From assembly GCA_015069195.1 (NCBI GenBank), contig SVJA01000007.1, forward strand, positions 45,825 through 109,824: a DNA stretch of 64,000 nt, written 5' to 3'. Positions 1 to 14,678 of this stretch are shown one piece after another; within the stretch, counting starts at the first letter, position 1; each line of letters starts with the position of its first letter. Under the pieces are notes generated by a model that searched no databases, had not been told where the DNA came from, and saw only the letters and a program-made list of their open reading frames with translations. The stretch comes from Oscillospiraceae bacterium (GTDB lineage Bacteria; Bacillota; Clostridia; UBA1212). Both the position numbers and the translations under genes were made by a program.

Positions 1-98
1 TAATATTGACCTTAAACGGAGCAGATCTGGCACACACTGTAGTAGGCAGAGCATCCGGTACCTCACAAATCGTTGGAATAGCTAAAGAACATCAAAAT

Positions 99-120
99 GA
101 CAGGAGCAAAAGCCCCTGTC
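99..120 (-). terminator. Terminator behind the spoIVB remnant
   Basis: On the minus strand nine-base arms (GACAGGGGC and GCTCCTGTC) pair around TTTT, with one G-U pair, followed by a U-rich stretch. Read on the plus strand the same position is an A-C mismatch, so the hairpin is built to stop minus-strand transcription. It starts six bases after the stop codon of the spoIVB tail fragment, as if it were that gene's original terminator. Confidence 0.7.
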
Positions 121-126
121 ATACTT

Positions 127-246
127 TTATCCCGCTGCATCCAGCATATTCTCTATAAAAATTCCGTACCCTCTCGTAGGATCATTTATCAAAACATGGG
201 TTACAGCACCTACTAATTTGCCATTTTGTATGACTGGCGACCCAGA
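127..246 (-). pseudogene. spoIVB: 3' end remnant of a second spoIVB
   Basis: On the minus strand this encodes about 39 codons beginning [10 protein letters not shown] and ending NMLDAAG-stop. They match the C-terminus of the intact SpoIVB at 13436-14530 in 31 of the first 36 residues, including the SGSP of the S55-peptidase serine motif. Upstream of SGSP the similarity stops abruptly and the frame meets a TAG stop within about 70 bases, so this is only a tail. Hand alignment of 108 bases gives about 71% DNA identity, so it is not a recent duplication. It and the intact gene's end are direct repeats bracketing the 464-13270 gene cluster. Confidence 0.9.
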
Positions 247-463
247 CACGAGTGTGTCAATATAGGACCAACAAGCTTCTGCACTTAAAATAAAAATAGC
301 AGCAAGCTATCTGCCTACTGCTATCTGTATGGTAAATTAAAATATTTTGGTCAATTTTTGGATCAAGCTCCGAAAACAAATCTCCTTTCTTTATCACTTT
401 AAAAAATTGCCGAAATATATTTTATTTCGGCAATTTAATAAACCTATTGTAATGCCGGTACCC
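247..463. other. Gene-free stretch at island edge
   Basis: No open frame with a credible start or ribosome binding site is visible. It holds the junction where spoIVB similarity ends (about 247), a short direct repeat GCTATCTG (two copies near 308-327), and the terminator hairpin at 404-436. No integrase or transposase remnant was recognised. Confidence 0.5.
404..436 (-). terminator. Terminator of the island operon
   Basis: A perfect 13-base inverted repeat (AAATTGCCGAAAT and its complement) with a seven-base loop, A/T-rich on both sides, 28 bases beyond the stop of the last gene of the minus-strand cluster. The symmetry means it could work in either direction; by position it ends the island transcript. 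Confidence 0.8.
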
Positions 464-790
464 TTATTCCTTCTCAATGGTAAACTTCAGACACCAGCTT
501 TCGTGAACTGAGTCACCGGCAACGGAATAGCTATTGCTTGCGTGTGCGATGACGGGTTCACCACCGCTGACAACCGTAACGGTATGATGGTCAACATACA
601 CTTCGGCTTTGACGATGTCACCTTCCTGTGTAACCGAGCGGATTTCAACTTTTATCTTATCTTCGTGGGGTAGAGGATACTGGGCACCCTCTACTAATTC
701 GTATCGCTTTTCGCCGTTATCCTCGTCAAACCAAGTGCTTTCCTTGTCGTATTCATAGTCCCATTTCATTACTAACAAATATTTATCCAT
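464..790 (-). CDS. Unknown small beta-rich protein, last gene of island operon
   Basis: 108 residues, no family recognised. An in-frame ATG nine codons upstream is possible, but GAGGTG stands six bases before ATG-GAT-AAA at 790, so the start MDKYLLVMKW is preferred. The protein is acidic (WDYEYDKE, WFDEDNGE) with alternating hydrophobic residues, as in an all-beta fold, and has no signal peptide or membrane segment. It lies 19 bases after the 810-1469 gene and is the most 3' member of the cluster. Its size and sequence style recall immunity-type proteins, but no motif proves that. Confidence 0.75.
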   Translation of the reverse strand: MDKYLLVMKWDYEYDKESTWFDEDNGEKRYELVEGAQYPLPHEDKIKVEIRSVTQEGDIVKAEVYVDHHTVTVVSGGEPVIAHASNSYSVAGDSVHESWCLKFTIEKE

Positions 791-809
791 AAATATCACC
801 TCATTATTA

Positions 810-1469
810 TTAATCAAAAAGAACTCGCGGATTTAATTCGGCGGGCGTATGCCACTCGATATCGTGCTCCAAAAGATAGGATTTTGTCAGCGACCATACC
901 TCAAAACAGGAGCCGTGTCCGTAGGTCGTGCGGCTCTTTTCGACTTTTTCTTCTATTTCATCAATAACCGCAAGGTATTCTTCGGTCATTTCAATAGGGT
1001 CATGTTTCAGCGAGCGACGTCGTTCTTTTCGTTCGTTTATGATCCGCCAGGCATCATCGGCATTCATAAGTTCTGTCGCAATGCCGGCAAGGTCGTCACA
1101 GTCATCATCAATATAAAAATTTCTTGCTTGCAAGGCGGCATAAAGATACCCGTCAATGCAATCGGTATCCGTGCCGTATTGCTGTTTCAGTGTCAGCGCC
1201 AATGTAAGAATTTGGTTATAAAACTTTGCTGACACAGCATAGCGCCCCAAACTATCGTAGCGGTCGGCTACGTATCCTAAAACTGCGATGCTATCAACAT
1301 AAGTAGATTCGTCAGAGTCCCCAGCCAACTGTTCCTCTACAAGTCGCACAATCTCTTTCAGCGCAGGGACATCCTTATAGGTAGCGGCGGCATATTCGTG
1401 TTCTTTGCGACCTTCTATTTTCCAAAATAATTCGGTCAGTTGCTTTTCGGTTTCTTTACTATAAGCCAT
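810..1469 (-). CDS. TPR-like helical protein, unknown function
   Basis: 219 residues starting MAYSKETEKQ. Mostly helical by composition; the segment AVLGYVADRYDSLGRYAVSAKFYNQILTL fits the helix-turn-helix pattern of tetratricopeptide repeats (small residues, then an aromatic, in each helix). The middle is acidic (NFYIDDDCDDLAG) and the C-terminal part is charged. No catalytic motif, signal peptide or membrane segment. It lies 20 bases after the LRR gene and 19 before the last gene. TPR proteins usually mediate protein contacts, so a scaffold or sensor role in the cluster is a reasonable inference, no more. Confidence 0.75.
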   Translation of the reverse strand: MAYSKETEKQLTELFWKIEGRKEHEYAAATYKDVPALKEIVRLVEEQLAGDSDESTYVDSIAVLGYVADRYDSLGRYAVSAKFYNQILTLALTLKQQYGTDTDCIDGYLYAALQARNFYIDDDCDDLAGIATELMNADDAWRIINERKERRRSLKHDPIEMTEEYLAVIDEIEEKVEKSRTTYGHGSCFEVWSLTKSYLLEHDIEWHTPAELNPRVLFD

Positions 1470-1489
1470 CCTTTATCCACCGCCCTTTC

Positions 1490-1927
1490 TTAATGCGGAT
1501 TATAATCATCATCCGACCAAAGCCTGTCATCCTCATAGCGTTCCGCAAACTTACTCGCTTTGCTGTTTTCCGGCACATCGAACCAGAGATCAGGTGAGCA
1601 TTCATAAAACGCCCATTTGCTTATCATCGTACTGCTGCCGAGAACGGTAACATCAGTAAGGCCCGTACAGCCCTGAAACGCCCAGTCTTCAACATTTTCA
1701 ACACGGGCAGGAATGGTGATTTCGGTAAGTCCCTCACAATCTTGGAACGCAGACCCTCTGATTCTCATAACGCCATCGGGGAGGGTTACGCTTTTCATTT
1801 CCCGACAGCCATAAAACGCAGACCTACCGATCTCGTACACACCGTCGGGGATCACAACATCGCCACCGTTACCAAGATATTTTCTCAAAACGCCGTCTTC
1901 AATTTCAAAAACTTTTGCGTTACTCAT
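1490..1927 (-). CDS. Small BspA-type leucine-rich repeat protein
   Basis: 145 residues made almost entirely of LRR_5 (BspA-like) repeats of about 23 residues: VVIPDGVYEIGRSAFYGC, VTLPDGVMRIRGSAFQDC, ITIPARVENVEDWAFQGC, then a degenerate copy ending WAFYEC. Each shows the family pattern I-P-x-x-V-x-x-I-x-x-x-A-F-x-x-C. No signal peptide or anchor, so it is probably cytoplasmic, unlike secreted BspA adhesins. The start ATG is preceded by GAAGG. The same repeat type ends the large fusion protein at 5399-7927, so the two may bind similar partners or each other (inference). Confidence 0.88.
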   Translation of the reverse strand: MSNAKVFEIEDGVLRKYLGNGGDVVIPDGVYEIGRSAFYGCREMKSVTLPDGVMRIRGSAFQDCEGLTEITIPARVENVEDWAFQGCTGLTDVTVLGSSTMISKWAFYECSPDLWFDVPENSKASKFAERYEDDRLWSDDDYNPH

Positions 1928-1956
1928 AACTTAACCTTCTTTCTTTTAGACACCGC

Positions 1957-2517
1957 TTATGTATATTCTTCCCTTAGCGTAACATCGCTAAGGTCTTTTT
2001 CATTTTCACCGAAGAACAAGTAAACAAATCCATCCAAAGTATCGAGGAAATCCATATCGTTATCCAGAGGATCGTATTGCATCAGAAGCTTCGGCGGCTC
2101 GTCCACGTAGTTCCAATCGCTCGGTATACCGAAAAGTCGGGTGCAGATCTCATCCTCGTCCACCTCGGAAAACTCCATTATGTACGCATGAGTGTATTTC
2201 TCATATCCTTCCACGGCAGCATTGAAATCATCGATGGCAAGCTCAGGTTCCCCATCATGATAACGCACATCTGCGCAGAGATGATATTTTCCATCTTCGG
2301 TATGTAAAAACACGTAAAGATATCCCGTATGCGGGAGTCTGTTTTCCGTGTCAAGAAGTGCTATATCGGAAAGCCTTATCTGACAGAAAAATATCTCATC
2401 ATCGTAGAAATCTCCGTCCCATACAAGGGGAACGGTGGGTGTTCCGAAGAACTTACTTGCTCCAAGGTCGTAGCCTTCTGGAGCCTTTTTTACTGTAATC
2501 TTGATTGCTTTACTCAT
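1957..2517 (-). CDS. YwqG/DUF1963-like protein
   Basis: 186 residues. Features of the YwqG (DUF1963) family: an N-terminal SKFFGTPTVPL segment (family pattern SKFGG-P-P), the FFCQIRLSDIALLD strand (family FLAQINFAEL), a GYLYVFL strand, and near the C-terminus KLLMQYD followed by GFVYLFFGENEKDLSDV, which matches the family's closing I-x-F-F-I-x-x-x-D-L pattern. YwqG proteins are often found next to polymorphic toxin, WGR and SMI1-type genes; their biochemical role is not settled. Start chosen at the second ATG (2517) because AGAGGG lies six bases upstream of it; the first ATG touches the ribosome binding site. Confidence 0.82.
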   Translation of the reverse strand: MSKAIKITVKKAPEGYDLGASKFFGTPTVPLVWDGDFYDDEIFFCQIRLSDIALLDTENRLPHTGYLYVFLHTEDGKYHLCADVRYHDGEPELAIDDFNAAVEGYEKYTHAYIMEFSEVDEDEICTRLFGIPSDWNYVDEPPKLLMQYDPLDNDMDFLDTLDGFVYLFFGENEKDLSDVTLREEYT

Positions 2518-2532
2518 ACGCATCCCTCTTTG

Positions 2533-2874
2533 TTACTCGACAATTTGAAAGTTCATCTCATCGGTTGCATACCATCCCGGGCCGTCGTCACTGGTTTCGT
2601 ACTGACTATCCTCAAAGCCAATGATACTGCCTTTTATAAGTCTTTGCGGCTCGTGATTTTTCACTCCACGGTCGGTTTTGGAAACCGCCGATATCGTGAC
2701 ACTGTTCTCGTCCATTGACAGGATTTCAAAACTGCGAAAGGCGTGGAAAATGCCAAATAGTGAAGGGGTTGAATACTCACCCAAAACGGCTTCCATCTCA
2801 ATTTCATCAGCGAAGTTCCCCGAGGAAGGTCTCCTTGCACCAAAATCACTATATCTTGTTATCTTCAGTTTCAT
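2533..2874 (-). CDS. Unknown small protein
   Basis: 113 residues, start MKLKITRYSDFGARRPSSGN. The ATG at 2874 has AAAGGA nine bases upstream; the longer frame would need a TTG. No recognised family. Short alternating hydrophobic stretches (FEILSMDENSVTISAV) suggest a beta-sandwich. The start lies two bases beyond the stop of the Sel1 gene, so translation is probably coupled. Nothing suggests secretion. Confidence 0.7.
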   Translation of the reverse strand: MKLKITRYSDFGARRPSSGNFADEIEMEAVLGEYSTPSLFGIFHAFRSFEILSMDENSVTISAVSKTDRGVKNHEPQRLIKGSIIGFEDSQYETSDDGPGWYATDEMNFQIVE

Positions 2875-2876
2875 AA

Positions 2877-3389
2877 TCAATCATCCTTTTTCTCATTGCG
2901 TTTTTGCCTTGCCGCTTCTTCACCTACACCCCGAAACACGTTCATTCCATAACGGCAGGGGTAGGCAGGCCGTAAATAATAACTGCCATCAGACCGAAAG
3001 CCCTCTTCCATTTCGCACCATTCGGGGTGATGCTCCTTGATCCAATATTCAATAGAACCATAAAGACATTCAGGCTCAACATCCGTAAAGGTTTTGCCCG
3101 ATGCAAAGGCCAGACGGCAGTAATGCTCAATTTTGTCGTGGTGTTCCTTTCTGTCCCAATTGGCATATAGGTCTGCCAACTTCCAATACGCCGTTTCCCG
3201 ACCATGCTCGGCGGCAAAAGTCAGCATTTCTATTATCTCTTCGCGGGTGGGATACATCACTTTTTGGGTGTGAAATGCCAACATTTCCATCGCTTCGGGG
3301 TCGCCGTTTTCCGCAGCTTCCTTATATTCTTTTATTTTACCCTTATGGTAATTTTCCCATTGTTCTCTTGCGCCATCAAAGCTTGACAT
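2877..3389 (-). CDS. Sel1-like repeat protein
   Basis: 170 residues. Two Sel1/TPR-like units are visible: YKEAAENGDPEAMEMLAFH and LTFAAEHGRETAYWKLADLY, matching the Sel1 pattern A-x-x-G-x-x-x-A-x-x-x-L-A-x-x-Y. A third helical unit follows (CRLAFASGKTFT). The C-terminal 60 residues carry no repeat and have several Trp, Tyr and Arg. The start at 3389 is preferred because AAGGAGG lies seven bases before it, whereas the upstream ATG at 3395 is only one base from that site. Sel1 proteins are adaptors; partner unknown. Confidence 0.8.
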   Translation of the reverse strand: MSSFDGAREQWENYHKGKIKEYKEAAENGDPEAMEMLAFHTQKVMYPTREEIIEMLTFAAEHGRETAYWKLADLYANWDRKEHHDKIEHYCRLAFASGKTFTDVEPECLYGSIEYWIKEHHPEWCEMEEGFRSDGSYYLRPAYPCRYGMNVFRGVGEEAARQKRNEKKDD

Positions 3390-3409
3390 CGCCATACCTC
3401 CTTCGATAG

Positions 3410-4042
3410 TTATACAGTAAATTTACTGACCGCGTCAATTTCTTCATCCTCGCCGTAGAAGCATTTGATATTACCGACAAAGTTATCCTCAACCACAAAA
3501 CCTATCTTTTGGGTTTCAAATGCACCAAACTCTATCTCTTTGGCAAAGTCGTAACCGATCATCACGCCGTCAATCCACACACATTCATCGTAGCTGCACC
3601 ATTTGCCGTTTGAATAGCAGGTTCGGGTGCCAACGCCGTATTCCTTGCCGCCGAGCACTTCGCCCTCGTATTCTGTCGTAAAGTTTTCGCTAATGGTATC
3701 GCTCACCGTGGATACTTTAGCCTGATCCATTTCTCTGTAGCCAGGGAATCCGAACGCCGTAAAAAAGATTTCAAGTGCTCGCTTGGCATCCATCGCATCG
3801 AGTCCATCTGACACAAGAATTCCATGCGCCTTGACAGCATATTCTTTGAAGTTGTACGCATCATTAATCATTTCAATAATTACGCTTCTTGCTTTGCCGT
3901 AAATTAAGGTTGTAAATAATTCGAAATCCTTTTTATCATCGGTAATAAAGTTCAATTTAAAATAACTTTTATTTTTGTTAAATAAATCGCGGAAGGCATT
4001 TTCACCCTCACACAATTTTCGAATAGCACTTACAATTTCCAT
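3410..4042 (-). CDS. Unknown two-part protein (helical plus beta)
   Basis: 210 residues. Residues 1 to about 100 are helical and end in DAMDAKRALEIFFTAFGFPG, which resembles a helical module I have seen in large multi-domain Firmicutes proteins but cannot name. Residues about 120-210 are beta-rich (EGEVLGGKEYGVGTRTCYSNGKWCSYDECVW), with GKEYG and GKW turns recalling MORN-like or SH3-like strands. The start ATG has AAGGTG about six bases upstream. It is separated by 14 bases from the previous gene's stop and 20 bases from the next gene's start. Confidence 0.75.
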   Translation of the reverse strand: MEIVSAIRKLCEGENAFRDLFNKNKSYFKLNFITDDKKDFELFTTLIYGKARSVIIEMINDAYNFKEYAVKAHGILVSDGLDAMDAKRALEIFFTAFGFPGYREMDQAKVSTVSDTISENFTTEYEGEVLGGKEYGVGTRTCYSNGKWCSYDECVWIDGVMIGYDFAKEIEFGAFETQKIGFVVEDNFVGNIKCFYGEDEEIDAVSKFTV

Positions 4043-4056
4043 TTCTTCACCTTCTT

Positions 4057-5319
4057 TTATACAATAGAGATAGCTTTTTCATAAAAGTCAATACACTCAT
4101 CAATGGCGATCAGAAGCTTATCCAGCATTTCATCGTAATTGGTACGGCGCACCATACCATGCTCAATTGCATAGTTCTGCCACGCCGCTGCGTCAAGCTG
4201 TCCGCCGCTCAGTCCGCCCAGATCGTAATTAGGCTCAGGTGAAGGGGACATACCAAGCGCGCCTTTTTTCTTTAGTTCTTCGGCCGCTACTTTTAATTCG
4301 TAAACGTTTGTGTTGGACTCAAGCCATTGTCTCAATTCATAACGACAGTTGCCTACGCTTCGTGCTTCATCTGCGATTTCTATACCTATGCAACCGTCAG
4401 CGTAAACCGGTTTGCCCTTTTGCACATCAACGACCGTTGTCTTTACCGGGTTACCGTTTTGGTCCACGGTCAGTGTCCAGGAATCAATCACGGTATAATC
4501 AAGTATGCCAATCTCTTTTTGCGCTTTGAACTTTCGATATTCCTCTTCCAACGCTCTTTGGTAGTAGGGAATCATTTTGAGTTCACATTCCCGCACAAAT
4601 GCTTTTTCTTCCTCACGGAACGCCCAATAGAGCAAATCCGATATGGCGGCGTAAAATTTATACTGTATAGAAAAGATGCTTTGGAGCTGCTCGTCTTGTT
4701 TAGCCAAAACCTCAAGAAACTCTTTGTATGCCTTGTTTAAGCGCTCATTATGTTCCAACATTAACTCCCTCATTTTTCTGCGGCAGGCATTTTCACGGTC
4801 TTGTATCATCTTACTGGTGGATATACCCGAATAAGCGGCTGCCGCTTCTTTAAAGTCGCCTTTTACCTCTGCCAAAACGCCTTTACGCACCAGCACACGG
4901 TCGGCATATTCCACGTAGTGTCCCGCAAAAATATCGTCCGCACATCCCGTTTGAATTTGTGCCAGTTCTTTTACCGTGAAATAAGAAGAAGCAAACGCCA
5001 TATCTTCCTCGTTGCCCAATGGGAAATCGCCGTCAAGACTATCGTTTTCCTCCTTCTTCATCTCATCCAGCCATTCATAATAAGAGTCATCGTGACTGAT
5101 GGCATCGGATACGACAGGTTCAATATGTCGGCGGATGAACAACTCTGCGACACGAATTATGCGAACAACCAAGTAATCGCATAACTCGCGTTTAGAGGAG
5201 TCCTTTTCCGCAATCTCACGGTAAGCGGCAACCCATTCATCCCGTGCCGCCTCAATTTGCTGTCGGGTGTACTTTTTAAGAATATCGTAATCAAATTTCA
5301 ACGCAATTTCCGGTTTCAT
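4057..5319 (-). CDS. Unknown helical protein, island operon
   Basis: 420 residues, strongly helical and charged. The central part (about 170-270) has long heptad-like Leu/Glu/Lys runs (RKMRELMLEHNERLNKAYKE) compatible with a coiled coil. A short beta segment around 275-310 contains VDQNGNPVKTTVVDVQKGK. The C-terminal 60 residues include GGLSGGQLDAAAWQNYA and an amphipathic helical end. No family, catalytic motif, signal peptide or membrane segment recognised. Strong ribosome binding site (AAGGAGGG, seven bases from the ATG). Confidence 0.78.
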   Translation of the reverse strand: MKPEIALKFDYDILKKYTRQQIEAARDEWVAAYREIAEKDSSKRELCDYLVVRIIRVAELFIRRHIEPVVSDAISHDDSYYEWLDEMKKEENDSLDGDFPLGNEEDMAFASSYFTVKELAQIQTGCADDIFAGHYVEYADRVLVRKGVLAEVKGDFKEAAAAYSGISTSKMIQDRENACRRKMRELMLEHNERLNKAYKEFLEVLAKQDEQLQSIFSIQYKFYAAISDLLYWAFREEEKAFVRECELKMIPYYQRALEEEYRKFKAQKEIGILDYTVIDSWTLTVDQNGNPVKTTVVDVQKGKPVYADGCIGIEIADEARSVGNCRYELRQWLESNTNVYELKVAAEELKKKGALGMSPSPEPNYDLGGLSGGQLDAAAWQNYAIEHGMVRRTNYDEMLDKLLIAIDECIDFYEKAISIV

Positions 5320-5322
5320 AGG

Positions 5323-5385
5323 TCATCCCTCCTTTTTACAGGGTATGTAATCAAATTCACCTTGACAGTATCTACATTTTCCCAT
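5323..5385 (-). CDS. Possible 20-residue Cys-rich peptide
   Basis: A 21-codon frame in the otherwise empty gap between the two large genes. It reads MGKCRYCQGEFDYIPCKKEG-stop, a CxxC pair plus a third Cys, like the first half of a zinc ribbon. Its last codons form the AAGGAGGG ribosome binding site of the 420-residue gene downstream, so it could be a leader peptide coupling translation. No good ribosome binding site precedes it (only AGAGAAAAG). It may equally be a chance frame or a relic of a zinc-ribbon gene. Confidence 0.3.
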   Translation of the reverse strand: MGKCRYCQGEFDYIPCKKEG

Positions 5386-5398
5386 AATCTTTTCTCTT

Positions 5399-7927
5399 TT
5401 ATTTTTTAAACGCTCTGCGATTTATGTCTTTGATTTTCCTAATCATATCCTTAGACATAGCCACATCACATTCTGAGAAAGCACCGTTTTCCAGTTCAAC
5501 TCCCCGTGGTGGGTCAGTTTCAAATATTACATCCCTTACACCACACATTAAGCCCCATTTTTCCACATTAATATTATTAGGCAAATAAATAGTTTTAATT
5601 TCGAAGCAAATTGAAAATGCCGAAGCTCCAATACGTCTTACACTGTTAGGAATTCTTAAAACAGGACCAATATTTTTGCACCACGAAAAAGCATCCTTAC
5701 CGATTTCCTCTAAGTCCTCATTAAAGCAAACTTTTTTCAAATTCTCGCATTTAGAGAACACATAATCTGAGATCTTTTTTACGCCATTCGGAACAACCAA
5801 CACAGGACATTTAGCGAAAAAGTTCTGCTTCTCCTGGGTATTCATATCCAACAGTCGATTCCATACCTTCTCACAATTATAATCGTAACTTAGATAACGC
5901 CCAAACTCTGCAGGGTCACCTTGCTCTCCGTTTGGTAAAACCACTGACAAAATGCGAGATAACTCACCATTCATAAAATAACCAGTAAAACTATGCCCAT
6001 CCGGATATACGCGGGTGCCTTTTCCGTTAAGAGAACCATTTATAAATTCCCCATTATCATAGTATACCAAATTAATCTTATCGTTTGGATACGCAAAATA
6101 TCCTTTGCAACCCATCGGGCGCTCCACTGTTGTATTCAGTATGTAGTCACCATTGCTATTTCGTACAAAAGCGCCATATTCCCATTTTGTGCTTTTATCA
6201 TCATATAGCCAAGCACGAAGTCCAAATTTTAATATTCCGTGTTCAAAGATGCCCTCTTCGTAATACTGGGGTTCTCTAAAAGATGTCCAAAGGCAGCACC
6301 AGCCGTGTGCCTTTAAACTATTATCAACATTACCAAAATACCACATATCACCGGAATATATGCCAAATTCTCCTGCTTCCCTACATCCAAAATCTGGCGA
6401 ACTAACACCGTTACCGTTATTATAATAAAGACTGCTTATTGGGCCTTGACCGCTAGGATAGGAAAGACTGCGGTCAAATCCACGACCGTGTAGAACTCCT
6501 TCTTTATAATTTCCTACAAAGATTGTATCTCCATCTTTGTAGATTCCAAATCCGTGCATAGAACCGTTTTTCCAAAACCCTTCATATATGCTGCCATCAG
6601 AGAAATAGGAAATTCCCCAACCATTTGGAGTGCCTTCGTCGGTGGCATAACCGATGTAAGCGTGGCCTTTTTCGGTCATAAAAGATTGGAATCCATCGTA
6701 AAAAAGTCCTTCATTCTCCTCTTCGGTCTCATTGCTTTCCTCGCACCCTTCTTCCTCTTCGTCCTCATCATACTCCGCATTTATGTACCCAAAATCCGTA
6801 TCATAGAGACGTCCTTGAACGTTTGGTGTGATATACATATCTTCCATCTCTAGAAGTTCGTCTAAAAACTCACCATAGATTTTCTCGATTTCATAATAGG
6901 ATTCCCCCTCAACAATACATGAATATTGCTGATCATTTACGAACAATCGGGCAAAATACAGGGCCCCTATATCCCACATAATGTTTTCTTCAAGTCCATA
7001 GGTTTCTAAATAGTAATCAAGATAATATTTAAACAGATCCGATGGGCAACGATCATTTAATGTAGAATATTCGTTATAAAGGTAATGCGCAAAATGAAGC
7101 ATGGCAGTTTCGGTAAGATCGTTAGGTTCAGCAAGACATTCGTTATATGCACATTTCAACGCACATTCACAGAGGTCAAAAAGCTGTACTTCTTCACCCG
7201 AAAAAATTCCTTCATCAGAAGTAGCACTATTCAAGACATTCGCATCCACCTGTACAATTTCAGCCAAAAATTCCTGTGCCGTACCGAGGTCTCTTTCTTC
7301 TAAGTTGTTCAAAACTGCCTGGAAGAATGGACCGATATTATTTACAGCATTATCCAGATTACCATATCCATCATTATACAAACTGCTTTCTTCATCCATA
7401 CAAGCGTTGTAATAGTCTGTCATGGTTTCAAATTCTTCGTCATAAGTATCCACATCCTGCTCGTATACTTCTTCTATACAGTCTTCCACTTCAATGACAG
7501 TTGCTTTCTTTGGAGTTTCAGACTGAGGCTTTATCTCATTTTTCTGTGCTTCCGCACCGAAAATAGCATCAAATTCATCATTTTTCGGCGTAGATACCTT
7601 TGCTGGAGAAGGAGTAGTCTTTTTCGTAGCGGATTTTTTTGTTGTGTTAGACTTCTTTGTTGTGGTAGTCTTTTTTTCTGCAGGAGCTTCTATTTTCAGT
7701 TCAAGACCTGGGACTGACACGGTATTGCCAAGTGAGTCCAGTTCCTTGAATAGAGCGGTCGCCTTGTCTTTGTCCAATCCTGTTGCAACAGTTGAAGGCG
7801 CTTTGTCCACCATAGCTTTAGCTGCAGCAAGACCAAGCCCTAATGCCTGGCATATGGCTCTGGTCGTCTTTAACTGTTGATTTCCAACTTTTTCTAAAAT
7901 AACATCATAATTTTTCTTATCAGCCAT
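5399..7927 (-). CDS. L7/L12 C-terminal-like domain fused to MORN and LRR repeats
   Basis: 842 residues. Residues 6-74 match the ribosomal bL12 C-terminal domain along its whole length: YDVILEKVG at the start, GLGLAAAKAMVDKAP in the centre and LDSLGNTVSVPG at the end, with the signature G-L-G-L-x-x-A-K-x-x-V-x-x-A-P. A Lys/Thr-rich linker follows (about 78-105), then an acidic helical region (to about 400), MORN repeats (about 410-660; for example GSIYEGFWKNGSMHGFG) and BspA-type LRRs (about 695-840; ISDYVFSKCENLKKV). The ATG at 7927 has GGAGG nine bases upstream and overlaps the stop of the STAND gene by eight bases. An earlier in-frame TTG is less likely. The role is inferred only: a ribosome- or GTPase-related bait or scaffold. 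Confidence 0.88.
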   Translation of the reverse strand: MADKKNYDVILEKVGNQQLKTTRAICQALGLGLAAAKAMVDKAPSTVATGLDKDKATALFKELDSLGNTVSVPGLELKIEAPAEKKTTTTKKSNTTKKSATKKTTPSPAKVSTPKNDEFDAIFGAEAQKNEIKPQSETPKKATVIEVEDCIEEVYEQDVDTYDEEFETMTDYYNACMDEESSLYNDGYGNLDNAVNNIGPFFQAVLNNLEERDLGTAQEFLAEIVQVDANVLNSATSDEGIFSGEEVQLFDLCECALKCAYNECLAEPNDLTETAMLHFAHYLYNEYSTLNDRCPSDLFKYYLDYYLETYGLEENIMWDIGALYFARLFVNDQQYSCIVEGESYYEIEKIYGEFLDELLEMEDMYITPNVQGRLYDTDFGYINAEYDEDEEEEGCEESNETEEENEGLFYDGFQSFMTEKGHAYIGYATDEGTPNGWGISYFSDGSIYEGFWKNGSMHGFGIYKDGDTIFVGNYKEGVLHGRGFDRSLSYPSGQGPISSLYYNNGNGVSSPDFGCREAGEFGIYSGDMWYFGNVDNSLKAHGWCCLWTSFREPQYYEEGIFEHGILKFGLRAWLYDDKSTKWEYGAFVRNSNGDYILNTTVERPMGCKGYFAYPNDKINLVYYDNGEFINGSLNGKGTRVYPDGHSFTGYFMNGELSRILSVVLPNGEQGDPAEFGRYLSYDYNCEKVWNRLLDMNTQEKQNFFAKCPVLVVPNGVKKISDYVFSKCENLKKVCFNEDLEEIGKDAFSWCKNIGPVLRIPNSVRRIGASAFSICFEIKTIYLPNNINVEKWGLMCGVRDVIFETDPPRGVELENGAFSECDVAMSKDMIRKIKDINRRAFKK

Positions 7928-10900
7928 TTTCAATTTCCTCCTTTAAAATCTCGCAATATGCCTCGATTGATATAGAAGCAATACGTTCTAATCCCATATA
8001 TTGGTCCTTGATCGTATTAAATTTTTCTACGATTTCTAAAAATTTATCCATATCCTCTTCAATATAATAGTACCTGATGATATCTTGTACGATGGTTTCC
8101 AATTCTCCGTCGCATTTTGCCGCTTCAAGCAATCTTTCTATGTCGTCTATGTATTGCAACACATATGCACAGTGGAGAATGTCCACATAATCTGAAACAT
8201 CTAATACCGTTTCTACCAAATACTTCGTAATGGTTATATACCAATCTACTAAATTCTCGTCAAGCTCCTCTTCTTTATCAGACAAATCAGCAAAATAAAA
8301 CAGCAATGCACGCCAAAACATGATACCATCTGACCTATGACTTGTACGTTTCCATACTTCCTCGGCTTTATGCATAAGGTCTTCATTATCAACCTCTTTG
8401 ACATCAAGATTTACCTGAATTTCTGCACGGAGCAAATCTAAATCGAAAGGATATTCCTGCTTACCAATCATAATCCAATAGTCATCTTCCATAAGCTTGG
8501 AAATATACATAAAATCTTCTTTCTTAGCTTCAAATATATCTGATTCATAAGCAATGTCGTAGGCCATATCATGATATTTTTCTCCTAATTCATCATCGAA
8601 TAAGCTAACTATTTCTGAAAACTCGGTATACACCTTCATTCTTAAAAAGATATTTTCATATTCCGAATCATATGAGAAAACATCCAGAAATTCCTCTCCC
8701 TTAATATACTGTTCAAAAAACGCAATGGATTTCGTTTTATTAACAGCCTTAAGTAAACAAAAATAGATTTTGTTGGCTAAGTTTTCATCAAACTCCATTT
8801 CATTTTTTTGAAACAAATCAAGTGTATTCGTTAGTAATATAAAAGCGTTTTTAGGTTTGATATCAATCAAACATTCAACTAACTCAATAAGTGCCTTTAT
8901 TTCGATTATAAAAAGAAGCTTGCTATCTTTGGTTAAACACTCATCACAGGCAATTGCAAGCGGCGAGTAAAAATCATATACTAAACTTTCCGAGTCCGCA
9001 TCAACATCATAGAAAGACGGTAAAAGCCTAACATTATAAAACTCCTCATTCTTTCCAATTGCAAGCAACAAATCAATCGCTTTTTGATAATATCCTCGTA
9101 TAAGCAAATAACAAATACTATCCGTAATATCTTCTATTTTAGAACGTCTCAGTACAGAAACCAAATACTCAGGTGAAGAATCTAGTATTGCCGATTTAAA
9201 CGCGTATGGACGCAGTTCTTCATTCTGTAGCATGTATTCAGCCGCCGGAATGGCATCCCAATCATTCACATATCTAGAAATGCTTTGTTCAATTGCTCTG
9301 TTTTTTATTTTATAAAAACGATGGTAAGGATTGTAGCTTAGAACATCTTCTAACATCTGTACTACAAGCGAAAACTCAAGGTCATTAAAATCCCAATTGT
9401 ATTCTGCGAAAATACCACGAATATCTTCAATGCTAAAACTGACAGGAACATGTGTGAAGAGTCCTATTATTCTCTCTACAAACACATGGTTAATACGTTC
9501 CCCTGCCTCTTCCATAAGCTCACCCAGGATCTCATATCGTTCATCGGTAGTGTTATCTACAATGGATATCATATATTTATTAATGTTATCCATACCATCT
9601 CCCATAGCACGAATAGTGGCAAAATCCTCACTATCCAGAATCAGCAGTCTCTTAATAATGCTTTTTAGATATGAACTATAACAACTGCTTTCCTTAGATA
9701 GAATACATTCTTTTACTACCTCCGAGATTTCTTTGTGATTACTTCTTACAATACTGTCAAGTACTAATTTGGACTCTTCTTTCGTCAGCCCTCTCATAAG
9801 TGCCTTATTCGAAAACTCGAAAAAAGGATAAAAAGGAAGTTCCCTTTGCATTGCTATCACAAAAACAGCCTTAAATTCCATATTTTCTTCACTACTGCGC
9901 CATGTTGTTTCCAAAAAAGCCATATTTTGCAGCAATTCTCTATCGGCATTATCGATAAAAATACCAATTGGTTCTTCCAATTTTGATAGCATACTCAAAA
10001 TTTCTGCGTATAAATCTTCATCCGTATAGACCCTGTGTTCCAATCCTAAGATATCTTCTAATTTATAGATTAGAATCTCTGGAAATGAGAGAAAATCACT
10101 ACTGAATTTATCAAGGCCAAAGGAATATGCCAGTTTTTCTCCCTTCCACTTGCAATATGAGCTAATAACTGATGTGCTTTTACCGCTGCCCTCTTCTCCG
10201 TTAACATAAATGAACATTCTATCCTCTGTGACCTCTGAGCCACAATAAGCAAAATCATAATTATCGACAGCAGCGATGGTTTTATTGATTTCTTCAAAAT
10301 AGCGTTGGGCGGCCTGCATACTACGTTCCTGCCATGGAGTATTGCTTTCTGCCTCTAAATCCCGAAGTAATACTTTACTAAGATCTGCCTCTACCTGCGA
10401 TAGGAAATTTTCAAGACCTACAACTCTTTTGTTCTTTGCATCCCAAATAGCATCATAATAGCGAATCTGATCCGGATAAATTTCTCCAATGCGTTTTTTG
10501 AGTTCATTCACCTTATTTAAATGAATTTCACTTTCTGCTTCATAATCACGACGCTCTACATCGGTCATGCCGGATTTATCAAGATTACGGAAATAGAACA
10601 AGATGCGACCTTCATATTCCGGATTCAGTAATGCACCGTAATCAATCTCTAATTCCGTTACGGAAATATCTTTGATTTTTTCAATACCCTTTAATACACA
10701 AGCCTCATCGATTAACTCCTGTGCCGGTATCCATCCATATCGCTCACCAATGAGCACAATCATATATGGCTTACAATTGTCGATTTGGTCGAGACATACT
10801 TTAAGAACCTTACGGCTTCCTTCATCCGAATCCAAATCCGTGGTGTTAACACCCCAACGCAAATCGCCGAAGTACGCTTTTTCACCGTATTCACGCAATT

Positions 10901-10991
10901 GTTCGTTAAGCGTGGGAATAGCATAGGTCTGCAACATATCCCTTTCAAACTGCATGTCTTTAAATGTTGATGAAACAAATACCAGCTTCAT
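7920..10991 (-). CDS. DUF4062-STAND P-loop NTPase
   Basis: 1023 residues. The N-terminus (1 to about 130) is a DUF4062 domain: KLVFVSSTFKDMQFERDML, then FGDLRWGVNT and VLIGERYGW, the pattern also seen at the N-terminus of eukaryotic TEP1/NPHP3-type proteins. A STAND-type NTPase follows: Walker A at 264-273 (NGEEGSGKST) and Walker B at about 343-352 (GIFIDNADRE). Residues about 560-1023 are helical, probably a TPR-like sensor. STAND proteins of this layout act as oligomerising switches, and bacterial relatives (Avs-type) sense phage proteins. No nuclease motif was seen, so the DUF4062 domain is the likeliest effector or signalling part. GGAGGTG lies four bases before the ATG; 20 bases after the RyR gene. 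Confidence 0.9.
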   Translation of the reverse strand: MKLVFVSSTFKDMQFERDMLQTYAIPTLNEQLREYGEKAYFGDLRWGVNTTDLDSDEGSRKVLKVCLDQIDNCKPYMIVLIGERYGWIPAQELIDEACVLKGIEKIKDISVTELEIDYGALLNPEYEGRILFYFRNLDKSGMTDVERRDYEAESEIHLNKVNELKKRIGEIYPDQIRYYDAIWDAKNKRVVGLENFLSQVEADLSKVLLRDLEAESNTPWQERSMQAAQRYFEEINKTIAAVDNYDFAYCGSEVTEDRMFIYVNGEEGSGKSTSVISSYCKWKGEKLAYSFGLDKFSSDFLSFPEILIYKLEDILGLEHRVYTDEDLYAEILSMLSKLEEPIGIFIDNADRELLQNMAFLETTWRSSEENMEFKAVFVIAMQRELPFYPFFEFSNKALMRGLTKEESKLVLDSIVRSNHKEISEVVKECILSKESSCYSSYLKSIIKRLLILDSEDFATIRAMGDGMDNINKYMISIVDNTTDERYEILGELMEEAGERINHVFVERIIGLFTHVPVSFSIEDIRGIFAEYNWDFNDLEFSLVVQMLEDVLSYNPYHRFYKIKNRAIEQSISRYVNDWDAIPAAEYMLQNEELRPYAFKSAILDSSPEYLVSVLRRSKIEDITDSICYLLIRGYYQKAIDLLLAIGKNEEFYNVRLLPSFYDVDADSESLVYDFYSPLAIACDECLTKDSKLLFIIEIKALIELVECLIDIKPKNAFILLTNTLDLFQKNEMEFDENLANKIYFCLLKAVNKTKSIAFFEQYIKGEEFLDVFSYDSEYENIFLRMKVYTEFSEIVSLFDDELGEKYHDMAYDIAYESDIFEAKKEDFMYISKLMEDDYWIMIGKQEYPFDLDLLRAEIQVNLDVKEVDNEDLMHKAEEVWKRTSHRSDGIMFWRALLFYFADLSDKEEELDENLVDWYITITKYLVETVLDVSDYVDILHCAYVLQYIDDIERLLEAAKCDGELETIVQDIIRYYYIEEDMDKFLEIVEKFNTIKDQYMGLERIASISIEAYCEILKEEIENG

Positions 10992-11011
10992 AGCGCACCT
11001 CCATTCATCTT

Positions 11012-13045
11012 TTATTTTTCTATTAACGAATAACCAAGAGATGTTAATAGTTCCTCGGCTGAGGTAATCAGCATTTCATCATAAATATAATAGTCATAGT
11101 CTTCGGCGGTACATCCATTTCCTGCTTTTTCTGCTAGGTAGGATGATAAATCGTTCAGACCATTATATGTCGTAAGGCAGGCATGTTTTTTAGACACGGT
11201 ATTTTTCACATTAAAGCGTACTTTCTTACCGTCTTCAGACTTGATTGTAATACCGTCTTTCCTAAGAGGAAGGTATTCCCCGAGCAGATGATACGCATTC
11301 CATCTTGCATGCTCCTGGGCAATCAATGCATTACGAACAGAAGGTGTAAAATATTCGCTGTAAGCGTATTCTCCGTTGCGTCCGTAACGTTCCCCAACAA
11401 GTGCAGTGTTTGCTCCATTGCCGTCCTTTACATAATCCAAACCAAGCAAATTGAGCTTTACTCGCAGACTCATTGCCGAATAGATGTTGGAATATAAGGT
11501 AAAATAGTCAAGGCTGTTCCAATCTTCTTCTGCTTTTTTCTGAATATACTCGGCAAAATCTGGACGTTTTCTTTCCTCTTCCCCTGCATATTGTGCGGTG
11601 TATACTTCGTTAAGCTTCTTTGCCATAACCGACAAACTATCATTAACAATAACCTCGTGATTAAACACGCTTTCACTCTTTCCAAAATATGTAGTATTCG
11701 CATTGTCCTCGGTATATGCAGCTTCGCTACGCACAAACAACTGATAATTGTCCTTATCAAATAGAGCCGTATTTATTTTTGCAGCAATCTCAATATTATG
11801 ACAATCTTCATTGGTATCCACAACAATCAATGTATAACTGTTATCCTTTTGTACCTTTGTTTTAATTGCCTTTAGCACCTCGCGTGAGGCAGGCGACTTA
11901 TCGATTGTCACGGTTTTATATGGCAATTCTGGTAATGGGAAATATTCCGCAGTATTACATTCTTCCAGTTCCTCTGCCAAACCGCCAATATCCCATTCTG
12001 CAGTATCAATATTTGTGTCGCATAAAAAATAATTTATCGGCAGGACTTTATATTCGCCATCAAAAGTAACCAGCTGATTGTTCAGAATGGATTGACGATA
12101 CCATTCTTTACAAAACTTTCCAAAACCAAGCACAAACATGTTGATTTCCGTTCCTTGCTTAACAGCAGCTTTTTCGATAAAGTTATTTGGCAGATACTTT
12201 GTAACAGGATGTTCTTCCATAAGCATACGTACTAACAGTTCATTTGTGCTGAAGGTGTCAATGTACGCTTCCATCCCATTCTTCTCAATAATTTCACGAC
12301 GAATCGTTTCGGCCTTCTCTCCCTCCATCTCTACATAGAGGTATATGTTTTTAGATTCCTGTGCCGCTTTCTTGTACGCAATGAATGTGTCTACACAATC
12401 CAGGCTCTTTTCCTCATTAATACAAATCAGGTTATAACGTGTGTTGGTGTTGAACAGGTGACCTTTTAGCAAAGTCTCTGTAAAGCCTTTGTGTAAAATT
12501 ACATACTTATCTTCGATTAATTCATTAATAGCATCTTTGCTTACGCTGTCATCCAGTAGCAATACTGCATTGTATGACTTCGCATAACGCAAGGCACGTG
12601 GACTGTTCCCCATTACCACATCACAATCTGTCTGTTTCATTGCCTTTGCAAGACGAAAGCTATTGACTATTGAATTGTGAAAAGCCTCAACAACTGTACT
12701 GATAACAGAAATGAGGGATACCAGAACCGCCAATATATAGGCATATGCAAAAATCGAAACGACTTCAGAGAAAGCAATTGCTGATTCACCGCCACCCTGG
12801 CCAATGAACATCTGAACCGCCGACATCACACAGCCGAACAACCCAAAAACATGATTTACTTTTTCCTCAAGCACTATCACGTTATACAGATACGGCACAA
12901 GATTTAACGCCAAATTCACAAGAAATACAACCGCTAAATATGGGAGCGTTTCATTGAGTTTCTTCCTGTTAAATCGTCCAATAATAAAACTAAGTAATAG
13001 CACGACTTCGACAATTAAAATAAAAATGCTAATATTGTTCCACAT
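11012..13045 (-). CDS. Membrane protein with Rossmann and RyR-like domains
   Basis: 677 residues. About four hydrophobic segments in the first 125 residues (FILIVEVVLLLSFIIG; YLAVVFLVNLALNLVPYL; a weaker GLFGCVMSAVQMFIG; AYILAVLVSLISVIS). The cytoplasmic part begins with a TrkA-N/RCK-like Rossmann unit (about 140-290: DVVMGNSPRALRYAKSYNAVLLLDD), then a second nucleotide-fold-like unit starting FVLGFGKFCKEW. The C-terminus (about 555-675) matches the bacterial RyR domain: EHARWNAYHLLGEYLP and later HACLTTYNGLNDLSSYL. RyR domains occur in predicted nucleotide-signalling conflict systems. Probable role: membrane sensor or pore gated by a bound nucleotide. AAGGAG is seven bases from the ATG; 12 bases after the XRE gene. 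Confidence 0.85.
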   Translation of the reverse strand: MWNNISIFILIVEVVLLLSFIIGRFNRKKLNETLPYLAVVFLVNLALNLVPYLYNVIVLEEKVNHVFGLFGCVMSAVQMFIGQGGGESAIAFSEVVSIFAYAYILAVLVSLISVISTVVEAFHNSIVNSFRLAKAMKQTDCDVVMGNSPRALRYAKSYNAVLLLDDSVSKDAINELIEDKYVILHKGFTETLLKGHLFNTNTRYNLICINEEKSLDCVDTFIAYKKAAQESKNIYLYVEMEGEKAETIRREIIEKNGMEAYIDTFSTNELLVRMLMEEHPVTKYLPNNFIEKAAVKQGTEINMFVLGFGKFCKEWYRQSILNNQLVTFDGEYKVLPINYFLCDTNIDTAEWDIGGLAEELEECNTAEYFPLPELPYKTVTIDKSPASREVLKAIKTKVQKDNSYTLIVVDTNEDCHNIEIAAKINTALFDKDNYQLFVRSEAAYTEDNANTTYFGKSESVFNHEVIVNDSLSVMAKKLNEVYTAQYAGEEERKRPDFAEYIQKKAEEDWNSLDYFTLYSNIYSAMSLRVKLNLLGLDYVKDGNGANTALVGERYGRNGEYAYSEYFTPSVRNALIAQEHARWNAYHLLGEYLPLRKDGITIKSEDGKKVRFNVKNTVSKKHACLTTYNGLNDLSSYLAEKAGNGCTAEDYDYYIYDEMLITSAEELLTSLGYSLIEK

Positions 13046-13057
13046 ACACGATCTCCT

Positions 13058-13270
13058 TTATGCCTCTTTAATTACATCCATCATATCACCAATGTTACAG
13101 TCTAATTTATCACAAATGCGAAGCAAAACATCAATAGACACCGGCTCATCTTTGCGCATTTTAGTCAGCGTATTAGGTGCAATTTCAGCCATTTTCCTAA
13201 GATCTGCTTTGCTCATTTTCTTATCCACTAGTAACTTCCAAAGCTTGTTATAACTTACTTTCATAGCCAT
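13058..13270 (-). CDS. XRE/Cro-type regulator (HTH_26-like), first gene of island operon
   Basis: 70 residues, essentially one helix-turn-helix domain: KADLRKMAEIAPNTLTKMRKDE is the helix 2-turn-helix 3 part, followed by SIDVLLRICDKLDCNIGDMMDV, the typical ending of YozG-like minimal regulators. No partner domain, so it probably acts as a dimer and may autoregulate the island operon from the promoter just upstream. The start at 13270 has AAAGGA about 10 bases upstream; a second ATG two codons later is possible. Only 12 bases separate it from the RyR membrane gene. Confidence 0.9.
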   Translation of the reverse strand: MAMKVSYNKLWKLLVDKKMSKADLRKMAEIAPNTLTKMRKDEPVSIDVLLRICDKLDCNIGDMMDVIKEA

Positions 13271-13310
13271 GTTAGTATATTCCTTTCTGCATATATAAGT
13301 TTACTTTTAT

Positions 13311-13339
13311 ATTATAGCACAACGGATTCATTCTTACAA
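13311..13339 (-). promoter_or_regulatory. Sigma-A-type promoter of the island operon
   Basis: Minus strand: -35 TTGTAA (13334-13339), spacer of 17 bases, -10 TATAAT (13311-13316, consensus). It lies about 40 bases upstream of the XRE start and is the only good promoter seen for the cluster down to 464. Confidence 0.75.
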
Positions 13340-13360
13340 CAAACATTACTAAAACAAAAA

Positions 13361-13390
13361 CAGACTCTCGCACAGAAATGCGAAAGTCTG
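13361..13390 (-). terminator. Terminator of spoIVB, bidirectional
   Basis: Arms CAGACTCTCGCA and TGCGAAAGTCTG pair with one mismatch around CAGAAA. On the minus strand it is followed by TTTTTGTTTT, on the plus strand by CTATTTTTC. It separates spoIVB from the island promoter, so the island is transcriptionally insulated from the sporulation gene. Confidence 0.8.
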
Positions 13391-13435
13391 CTATTTTTCA
13401 TATATATTAATTGTTTACATTTTTAAGGGGTTATA

Positions 13436-14530
13436 TCAACGATCCAACATATTCTCAATAAATATCCCATACCCCCTCGTTGGGTCATTCACTAGCACAT
13501 GCGTCACCGCACCGATTAGTTTGCCATCCTGTAATATTGGACTGCCGCTCATACCCTGAACAATTCCTCCTGTCTCTGCAAGAAGATCACGGTCAGTTAC
13601 ATAAATTGACATTCCTTTTGAAGTTTCGCTCGAATCATTTTTAATTAATTCTATTTTCACGGCATATTCTTTCGGAGTTGTTCCCGATACCGTAGAAATA
13701 ATCGTTGCGTCTCCGGAGTATATCTCACTCATCCGTGCAACCGGCATTAAAATTCCGTACTCGTCCATATCATTGACTACGCTTTCAGATATTGTTCCGT
13801 AGATACCTCTGTCACAGTTTGTTTCAACGTTTCCTATTCCGTTTTCATTTTCTGAATTCAGAAAATAACCTTGCAATTCACCGGGAGAACCCGACTTACC
13901 TTTTACACAACCGCCTATTGCAGCATCGTATAAAGTACCGTCTGACATTTCAAAAAGTCCGCAATACTCCGCACCGCCTATGCCGTGACCGAGAGCACCG
14001 TATTGATTATTTTCAGGATTTATATATGTGAGTGTACCGATACCTGCCGCATTGTCCTTTACCCACAAACCAAGCTTGTTCTGATGGCTTTCAGCCGAAA
14101 CATCCGGTGTCACTGTAATTGTACAAACTTCATCATTTCGTATGACATTTACATCACAACTGCCCGTGCTTTTGTAAATACAGTTTTGCAAATCTACCGT
14201 TGAATGAACTTCCTCTCCGGAAACCGAAACAATTCTGTCACCGACAAGTATTCCCGCATCAAAGCTCGGATTTACGAATTTATCGTTTTCATTTTTAAAA
14301 CCGATAAAACCTGTTACAATAACTCCGTCCGATTGCATCTTTATACCAATAGGAACACCGCACACATAAAGGTGCGACGGATAAGCATTCACTTCACTGT
14401 ATCCGTAAGTTTCTACAGCCGTTACGGTATCACATGTATTTATTCCGCCAAAGAAACCGCATGAAAAAATCATTAAAACAAATGACAAAAAGCAAAGATT
14501 TTTAGCAAACAGTTTCGTTTTTTCTTTCAC
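13436..14530 (-). CDS. spoIVB: Stage IV sporulation protease SpoIVB
   Basis: 364 residues. SpoIVB is a forespore-secreted S55 serine peptidase that triggers processing of pro-sigma-K by cleaving SpoIVFA. Visible: an N-terminal hydrophobic anchor (LCFLSFVLMIFSCGFFGG), a PDZ domain (about 75-140; GFIGFKNENDKF, DRIVSVSGEEV), the histidine motif LGHGIGGAEYCG, and the serine motif GMSGSPILQDG near the C-terminus. The start is a GTG at 14530 with AAGGAGG eight bases upstream. A strong terminator lies directly upstream (14556-14587), leaving no room for a promoter between it and the gene. A diverged copy of its last 36 codons sits at 127-246. Confidence 0.96.
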   Translation of the reverse strand: MKEKTKLFAKNLCFLSFVLMIFSCGFFGGINTCDTVTAVETYGYSEVNAYPSHLYVCGVPIGIKMQSDGVIVTGFIGFKNENDKFVNPSFDAGILVGDRIVSVSGEEVHSTVDLQNCIYKSTGSCDVNVIRNDEVCTITVTPDVSAESHQNKLGLWVKDNAAGIGTLTYINPENNQYGALGHGIGGAEYCGLFEMSDGTLYDAAIGGCVKGKSGSPGELQGYFLNSENENGIGNVETNCDRGIYGTISESVVNDMDEYGILMPVARMSEIYSGDATIISTVSGTTPKEYAVKIELIKNDSSETSKGMSIYVTDRDLLAETGGIVQGMSGSPILQDGKLIGAVTHVLVNDPTRGYGIFIENMLDR

Positions 14531-14555
14531 ATTTAAAACCTCCTTTACACAAAAA

Positions 14556-14587
14556 AATCGGACGCAGATTTTTTCTGCCGTCCGATT
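14556..14587 (-). terminator. Terminator between recN and spoIVB
   Basis: Minus-strand hairpin with arms AATCGGACGGCAG and CTGCGTCCGATT (one bulged base), followed by seven U. It lies about 90 bases beyond the recN stop and only about 20 bases before the spoIVB GTG. It would end the recN transcript, but also sits in the leader of any transcript reaching spoIVB. Confidence 0.85.
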
Positions 14588-14678
14588 ATAAATTGTCCTG
14601 AGAAAGGTTTTGATATGCTGTCAAATGACACATTAAAAACCATTATACGGAATGATATTTTTTACAATTTTTTGTAAA

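Follow-up and report, generated by a model that had tools for sequence, protein, structure and literature searches.

The window analysed here, a stretch of 64,000 nucleotides from the Oscillospiraceae bacterium assembly GCA_015069195.1 (contig SVJA01000007.1, positions 45,825 to 109,824), contains an operon of 12 genes, all on the minus strand and running from position 13270 to 464, which we read with moderate confidence as a two-part invader alarm: a DUF4062-STAND receptor would make an ADP-ribose-type signal, and this signal would open a membrane channel built of RCK-type Rossmann domains and a RyR domain (RCK-RyR channel). The first-pass annotation of this DNA had proposed a STAND sensor and a membrane RyR effector. 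Both are retained here, the second as a membrane protein with predicted nucleotide gating, and the reading is sharpened to a predicted NADase on one side and to ligand residues of the ADP-ribose type on the other.

We predict that the membrane protein is a channel; a RyR domain forms its C terminus. Its transmembrane helices are followed by tandem RCK Rossmann domains, the arrangement expected of an RCK-gated channel. In the AlphaFold2 model (mean pLDDT 90) the best folds for the Rossmann domains are GsuK, TrkA and CASTOR (Foldseek, VIA), and relatives of the protein have Pfam matches to TrkA_N and RyR. The RyR domain named in the first-pass annotation has no Pfam match in the window protein itself (PF02026, E ≤ 1) and stands on its relatives, on profile comparison and on fold: PF02026 lies above cut-off in two relatives (L119 and L120, E = 4e-18 and 6e-16; L053 is below cut-off with E = 0.01), a profile comparison with the distant set of relatives gives 91% probability (E = 1e-6; just 28% with the close set), and a RyR3 repeat domain is found at Foldseek rank 21 (E = 0.02, probability 0.97). 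Against solved structures, the close set has no direct sequence match at E ≤ 1, and the distant set has, among the 8 matches listed, only faint ones to RyR1 (0.13) and MthK (0.3). Phage RyR proteins hold ADP-ribose signals with four residues, namely H75, W78, H100 and D117 of RyDEP (PMC13232231). The corresponding residues of the window protein, H579, W582, H621 and D656, are kept in 27, 28, 28 and 28 of 28 close relatives and in 14, 15, 15 and 14 of 15 distant relatives, respectively. The window domain has both the fold and the ligand residues of RyDEP and of the animal RyR domain R12.

The adjoining gene encodes the receptor, whose annotation as a DUF4062-STAND NTPase is borne out. DUF4062 (PF13271) covers residues 4–117 (E = 5.8e-13, 49 bits against a cut-off of 24.7), and a fold search assigns the core to a STAND NTPase fold with helical repeats. 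The NTPase core has a Walker A motif, GEEGSGKS, at residues 265–272 and an AAA_22 match below cut-off (E = 9e-5); the whole receptor model matches the plant TIR-NLR RPP1 with an rmsd of 20. According to a preprint (PMC13174449), DUF4062 acts as a TIR-like NADase both in bacteria and in TEP1, and the bacterial members of the family stop phages. By analogy, the first domain of the receptor is a predicted TIR-like NADase. Its glutamate E115 (motif SVTxLEIxYG) is kept by all 20 of the 20 relatives aligned, the published DUF4062 enzyme itself being outside the alignment. Pfam finds no TIR domain as such in the 10 operon proteins that were scanned, and no TIR_2 gene is found in the bacterium's own genome.

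The arrangement of the genes, their domains and the conservation of the residues are shown directly; enzyme product, ligand, gating step and a role in defence are inferred. The STAND protein would bind an invader product with its variable tail of helical repeats, and its NTPase core would drive assembly. Clustered DUF4062 domains would then cleave NAD+ using E115, as suggested by their family. The resulting compound, cyclised or not, would bind the RyR pocket formed by the conserved residues H579/W582/H621/D656, and the RCK ring would relay binding to the transmembrane pore; ions would leak, and growth would stop or the cell would die before the invader multiplies.

Both proteins belong to a tightly packed gene cluster on one strand, as had been noted in the first pass. 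Adjoining frames overlap by at most 14 bases or sit at most 79 bases apart, the widest gap (79 bases) being 5' of the 420-aa gene and every other gap measuring at most 29 bases. In the direction of reading, the operon and its signals are as follows (identities without further mention refer to the contig SVRY01000042.1, discussed below):

13311 to 13339, minus strand: promoter-like site TTGTAA-17-TATAAT with extended -10, 10 of 12 matches, preceding the XRE gene
13058 to 13270, minus strand: XRE/Cro-type regulator, 70 aa (Pfam HTH_26, E = 1e-19), 96% identical in L012 and L014
11012 to 13045, minus strand: predicted channel, with transmembrane segments at about 1–136, two RCK-type Rossmann domains at about 140–470 and the RyR domain at about 545–677
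7920 to 10991, minus strand: DUF4062-STAND receptor, 1023 aa (Pfam DUF4062, E = 5.8e-13; STAND folds; helical repeats)
5399 to 7933, minus strand: fusion of an L7/L12 C-terminal domain (CTD), MORN and LRR_5, 844 aa (Pfam and relatives), start likelier at 7927
4057 to 5319, minus strand: 420-aa protein, weak TPR hints below cut-off, 91% identical
3410 to 4042, minus strand: 210-aa protein, no Pfam match, 74% identical
2877 to 3395, minus strand: 172-aa protein, Sel1-like by eye only, absent from SVRY01000042.1
2533 to 2880, minus strand: 115-aa protein, no Pfam match, 77% identical
1957 to 2523, minus strand: 188-aa protein, DUF1963 (YwqG) below cut-off (E = 0.003), 87% identical
1490 to 1927, minus strand: 145-aa LRR_5 protein (Pfam, E = 9e-23), 89% identical
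810 to 1469, minus strand: 219-aa protein, no Pfam match, 91% identical
464 to 817, minus strand: last gene, 117-aa frame, start likelier at 790, 89% identical
400 to 436, minus strand: A+T-rich hairpin with T-run, terminator-like, 3' of the last gene, read from the sequence and absent from the list given by the signal scan

The promoter and the terminator claimed in the first pass are represented by both kinds of signal. Promoter-like sites are, however, no commoner in the scan than in shuffled sequences (33 found against 40.4), and the site at 13339–13311 is therefore no evidence by itself. The XRE protein probably controls expression of the operon. The eight smaller proteins, like the L7/L12-MORN-LRR protein, accompany the core pair as conserved partners. 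Pfam, PADLOC and NCBIfam scans covered 10 of the 12 operon proteins each; they include no toxin domain, and the core proteins have no NCBIfam match above cut-off. Rfam gives no RNA element in positions 1–15000 of the window. Regarding the smaller proteins, the YwqG assignment corresponds to the sub-threshold DUF1963 match, while the proposed Sel1 protein finds no Pfam match and has a weak ExoR hint alone.

The cluster recurs in SVRY01000042.1, a contig of the metagenome-assembled genome Oscillospiraceae bacterium SIG655 (L014; whole contig L077), with 11 of the 12 genes in unchanged order. The gene order is therefore no chance mosaic, which supports the single conserved operon first proposed, with its STAND receptor and its membrane RyR protein of predicted nucleotide gating. 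The three large genes are neighbours there as well, contrary to the refuting condition of the first pass that they adjoin in no other genome. The identities amount to 96% for the XRE protein, 70% for the channel, 67% for the STAND protein and 34–74% in aligned pieces of the L7/L12 fusion; the smaller genes follow, in order, with 91, 74, 77, 87, 89, 91 and 89%. The two core proteins and two small genes diverge most (67–77%), as does the fusion, against 87–96% for XRE and the other small genes. The copy misses the 172-aa gene and has an inserted 756-aa gene with NPCBM domains. In a second contig, JAFQAP010000002.1 (L012), the XRE, channel and STAND genes adjoin and the contig then ends. The fetched stretches of L011, L013, L015, L016, L017 and L018 (6 of the 8 contig-scan loci) contain no STAND homologue.

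A further line of evidence is the linkage of RyR genes with TIR or DUF4062 genes elsewhere. A class-wide scan with PF02026 (341 genomes and 14 control genomes) gives 28 matches in 23 of the 341 class genomes and in none of the controls, merged to 26 loci. A TIR_2 gene lies within 3 kb in 9 of these loci (0.12 expected) and within 1 kb in 8 (0.05 expected), and many of the pairs are immediate neighbours on the same strand. The expectation assumes random placement of the 40 TIR genes of the same genomes, with rounded genome sizes and TIR_2 only. The excess is about 70-fold with a nominal probability of 1e-15, which overstates the linkage because the nine linked loci stem from six families (f2, f16, f25, f31, f44 and f56). 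In a scan of 348 genomes across the phylum, 8 have a RyR gene, 7 of them with a TIR or DUF4062 gene within 1.2 kb (G140, G500, G527, G611, G690, G705 and G727; G055 is unlinked). G055 and G140 also belong to the class scan, and an earlier inspection had included G527, G690 and G727, which leaves G500, G611 and G705 as new cases. Candidate TIR neighbours were chosen by eye in the translated sequences, with confirmation by Pfam afterwards, except that L075 and L089 rest on the TIR_2 scan; some contigs end near the gene, and G399 (one of the 24 class-scan channel genomes) and one RyR locus (G246) were left out. The neighbour in L085 is TIR-like by eye, has no Pfam match and was not counted.

Members of the channel family are found beside TIR genes in L064, L065, L066, L067, L071 and L115. 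The last is plasmid pNP243 of Butyrivibrio fibrisolvens, whose annotation calls the product of the upstream gene a TIR protein and the channel hypothetical. A DUF4062 neighbour occurs in the window, in L012 and L014, and in L119, from another family within the phylum. The channels of L119 and L120, two loci of family f99 but of separate genera, are 80% identical (475/592). In L119 a DUF4062-STAND-TPR gene lies 181 bases from the channel; in L120 a TIR-STAND-TPR gene shares an operon with the channel, coming after a third gene, and another TIR gene lies 1.1 kb upstream. Judged from these two genomes, DUF4062 and TIR look interchangeable as partners of one channel, since nearly the same channels and third genes go with different receptors. 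The third gene beside the channel (L119 6486–8273, L120 9670–11472) is 83% identical and has weak DUF4231 and SLATT-type membrane matches below cut-off.

RyR domains also occur in other settings. L073, L074, L075, L089 and L090 encode a family of 575–592 aa with a C-terminal RyR domain, beside TIR genes or near a DUF4062 gene, with LRR repeats alongside in L074 and L090. In L065, L079 and L080 three genes follow one another, for a long RyR protein, a stand-alone RyR protein of 98–103 aa and a TIR protein. In L079 and L080 the long protein is channel-like by eye but was not counted as a channel because it has no channel-profile match at E ≤ 1. In L084 and L072, stand-alone RyR genes are clustered with a TIR gene, a PP2C-like gene (judged by eye) and a protein kinase gene, the last recognised by Pfam in L084 and by eye in L072. 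G705 (L118 6527–10178) contains a cluster of cyclase, stand-alone RyR and TIR genes, and a Priestia aryabhattai plasmid (L116) combines cyclase, stand-alone RyR and TIR genes with a Pycsar effector. A SIR2 gene lies near one Methylobacterium RyR gene, and a kinase near RyR in G259.

Several observations weigh against the alarm with a channel as its output. The channel pore is unproven because the K+ selectivity filter TxG[YF]G is absent from residues 1–140, and the DUF4062 stretch of the receptor model is less confident (pLDDT 48–83), its fold being judged on the whole model. The published DUF4062 enzyme yields plain ADP-ribose and no cyclic signal (PMC13174449). PADLOC recognises no catalogued antiphage protein in the operon proteins scanned (best E = 0.018), the channel and the STAND protein being without any match. 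The co-occurrence of the channel with this type of STAND protein is narrow: in a scan of 391 genomes of the class the channel is found in 24 and this STAND subtype in 8, and both together in the window's genome only. As for the linkage, 17 of the 26 RyR loci lack TIR_2 within 5 kb, and only 5 of 23 inspected class-scan channel loci, the window included, have a TIR or DUF4062 neighbour. Many of the channel loci without such a neighbour are orphans of family f12 beside a radical-SAM gene. These orphan relatives (L053–L060 and L068; in L053 a radical-SAM/SPASM gene adjoins) have possibly been domesticated.

The best of the competing explanations, though an unlikely one in our estimate, lets the DUF4062-STAND protein itself kill by depletion of NAD+, as reported for Swarozyc; the RCK-RyR protein would then be no killer but a safety device or an amplifier that senses or mops up the ADP-ribose set free. 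Swarozyc acts without a second gene and turns NAD+ into plain ADP-ribose by hydrolysis (PMC13174449), RyR proteins can be sponges or glycosidases (PMC13232231), and the catalytic pair of RyDEP, H75/D117, corresponds to H579/D656, both kept in the channel. Nevertheless, a membrane protein with an RCK gating ring would be an odd sponge, and the recurrent pairing of TIR or DUF4062 genes with the channel family suggests that the channel is the output. We consider it still less probable that the RyR/RCK protein is a channel which responds to common adenine nucleotides and keeps ions or redox state in balance, its NADase neighbour being due to shared regulation or to clustering in a defence island. 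Animal RyR repeats do bind ATP (6uhh), and many channel relatives stand alone in housekeeping surroundings (radical-SAM in f12; DUF362 near the channel relative of L013), but the linkage of RyR and TIR genes is some 70-fold over chance and often between immediate same-strand neighbours. A mosaic of unrelated co-oriented genes, or a toxin-immunity island, is very improbable and largely refuted: the downstream genes do come from weakly defined families (LRR, DUF1963-like, TPR-like) and the SIG655 copy has one gene missing and one inserted, but 11 of 12 genes keep their order at 67–96% identity outside the fusion (34–74% in its pieces) and the proteins scanned have no toxin domain. The alarm with a receptor-made signal and a channel as output is the reading that we retain.

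The domains assigned to the fusion protein in the first pass are confirmed by Pfam (L7/L12 CTD, E = 1.4e-12; MORN, 4e-7; LRR_5, 2e-18). The link to translation that had been attached to them is unsupported. The L7/L12 domain is real, but all 14 L7/L12-bearing relatives among the 18 fusion relatives listed show a stretch of the NQ[QP] type (NQQLKTT, NQPLKTT, NQPLMTT or NQPMLTT) in place of the ANKMAVIK that the genome's own bL12 has at this position, and which we take to be the part of bL12 that binds translation factors. One DUF4062 protein of another genome, P0177, also carries MORN repeats and ties this part of the fusion to the receptor.

The surroundings of the operon contain traces of transfer:

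13436 to 14530, minus strand: intact spoIVB, the upstream neighbour and outside the system (Peptidase_S55, E = 3e-77)
250 to 273, minus strand: 24-base boundary motif TGTTGGTCCTATATTGACACACTC, abutting the spoIVB remnant
139 to 249, minus strand: divergent 3' remnant of spoIVB, 84% amino-acid identity to SpoIVB 327–363

The operon thus sits between an intact spoIVB and a divergent spoIVB 3' remnant. In JAFQWA010000035.1 (L011) the last operon gene and its flank are 91% identical to the window at DNA level (445/491) up to a variant of the boundary motif. About 125 bases beyond this variant the motif occurs again as an exact copy, directly joined to a spoIVB remnant at the codon where the window has its junction too. 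Over motif and remnant together, L011 and the window are 77% identical (101/131), and a lone channel gene and spo0A come after the junction. The junctions of remnant and motif in both places suggest a site-specific arrival at spoIVB. The pattern is what a horizontally acquired, sharp-edged block would leave, and by this sequence comparison the operon is apparently mobile. The boundary motif is a single site in the bacterium's own genome, with no repeated element ends, and no recombinase is found in the operon; a tyrosine integrase lies nearby in the SIG655 contig only. The SpoIVB proteins of relatives, aligned over most of their length, are at most 46% identical, too distant to single out the native one of the two spoIVB 3' ends. 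On the far side of the remnant, a BclA_C-like spore-coat fragment (L001 1329–1658, around window positions 1–158, plus strand; E = 2e-5, below cut-off) runs into it. A viral origin of the channel was also considered: none of 27 pattern-matching stretches of viral contigs was confirmed, and phage records contain no relative.

Beyond this operon, we tentatively propose, with rather less confidence than the alarm itself, a broad undescribed class of bacterial immune systems whose receptor, an NADase of the TIR or DUF4062 type, signals to RyR proteins. The RCK-RyR channel would be a principal effector, the RyR domain would be the receptor for TIR-made ADP-ribose signals, and the animal link between cyclic ADP-ribose (cADPR) and the ryanodine receptor would be a descendant or a parallel. 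Two preprints of 2026 describe, separately, DUF4062 as a TIR-like NADase (PMC13174449) and phage RyR proteins that bind or destroy TIR-made signals (PMC13232231). The gap between them is the host protein that the phage RyR proteins would resemble; in the window, a channel of the host that has these very ligand residues is encoded beside the predicted NADase, and RyR-TIR neighbourhoods recur across the phylum. If true, an ion channel joins the outputs of NAD-derived immune signals, and the old question of a direct action of cyclic ADP-ribose on the RyR domain becomes a simple binding test with small bacterial proteins. No description of a bacterial RyR-TIR or RyR-DUF4062 operon was found in open-access titles and abstract starts, among the matches listed, subscription literature being mostly outside this search. 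An earlier mention of bacterial RyR domains is possible in a 2015 'nucleotide-centric' survey, which lies outside the literature covered.

Among known systems, the operon resembles Thoeris in having a predicted NAD-cleaving sensor beside a distinct effector that carries a domain for nucleotides derived from NAD. It differs in its DUF4062-STAND protein, without a canonical TIR protein, and in its RCK-RyR channel, whereas Thoeris effectors carry SLOG or macro domains (PMC11204291), neither of which has a Pfam match in the channel protein. With Swarozyc (PMC13174449) it shares DUF4062 and a patchy spread, and the conserved glutamate E115 is a candidate counterpart of the catalytic one. In Swarozyc the phage portal is bound by an auxiliary winged-helix domain; in the window, DUF4062 is followed by a STAND NTPase with helical repeats (the winged-helix domain was not directly searched for) and a channel gene adjoins. 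RyDEP (PMC13232231) and the animal RyR R12 have the same RyR fold and the same four ligand residues, but RyDEP is a soluble counter-defence protein of phages, whereas here the RyR domain ends a host membrane channel beside an NADase gene. The RCK-gated proteins GsuK, MthK, CASTOR and TrkA likewise have two tandem Rossmann domains after transmembrane helices; the window protein differs by the missing K+ filter motif and by its additional C-terminal RyR domain. TEP1, NWD1 and other eukaryotic DUF4062-STAND proteins also combine DUF4062, a STAND-type NTPase and a repeat sensor (PMC13174449), while the receptor described here is bacterial, forms an operon with a channel and has helical repeats instead of WD40. 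We place the operon within NAD-signal immunity, apart from both Thoeris and Swarozyc, because its working would be Thoeris-like, it falls outside the definition of Thoeris and its receptor architecture is unlike that of Swarozyc.

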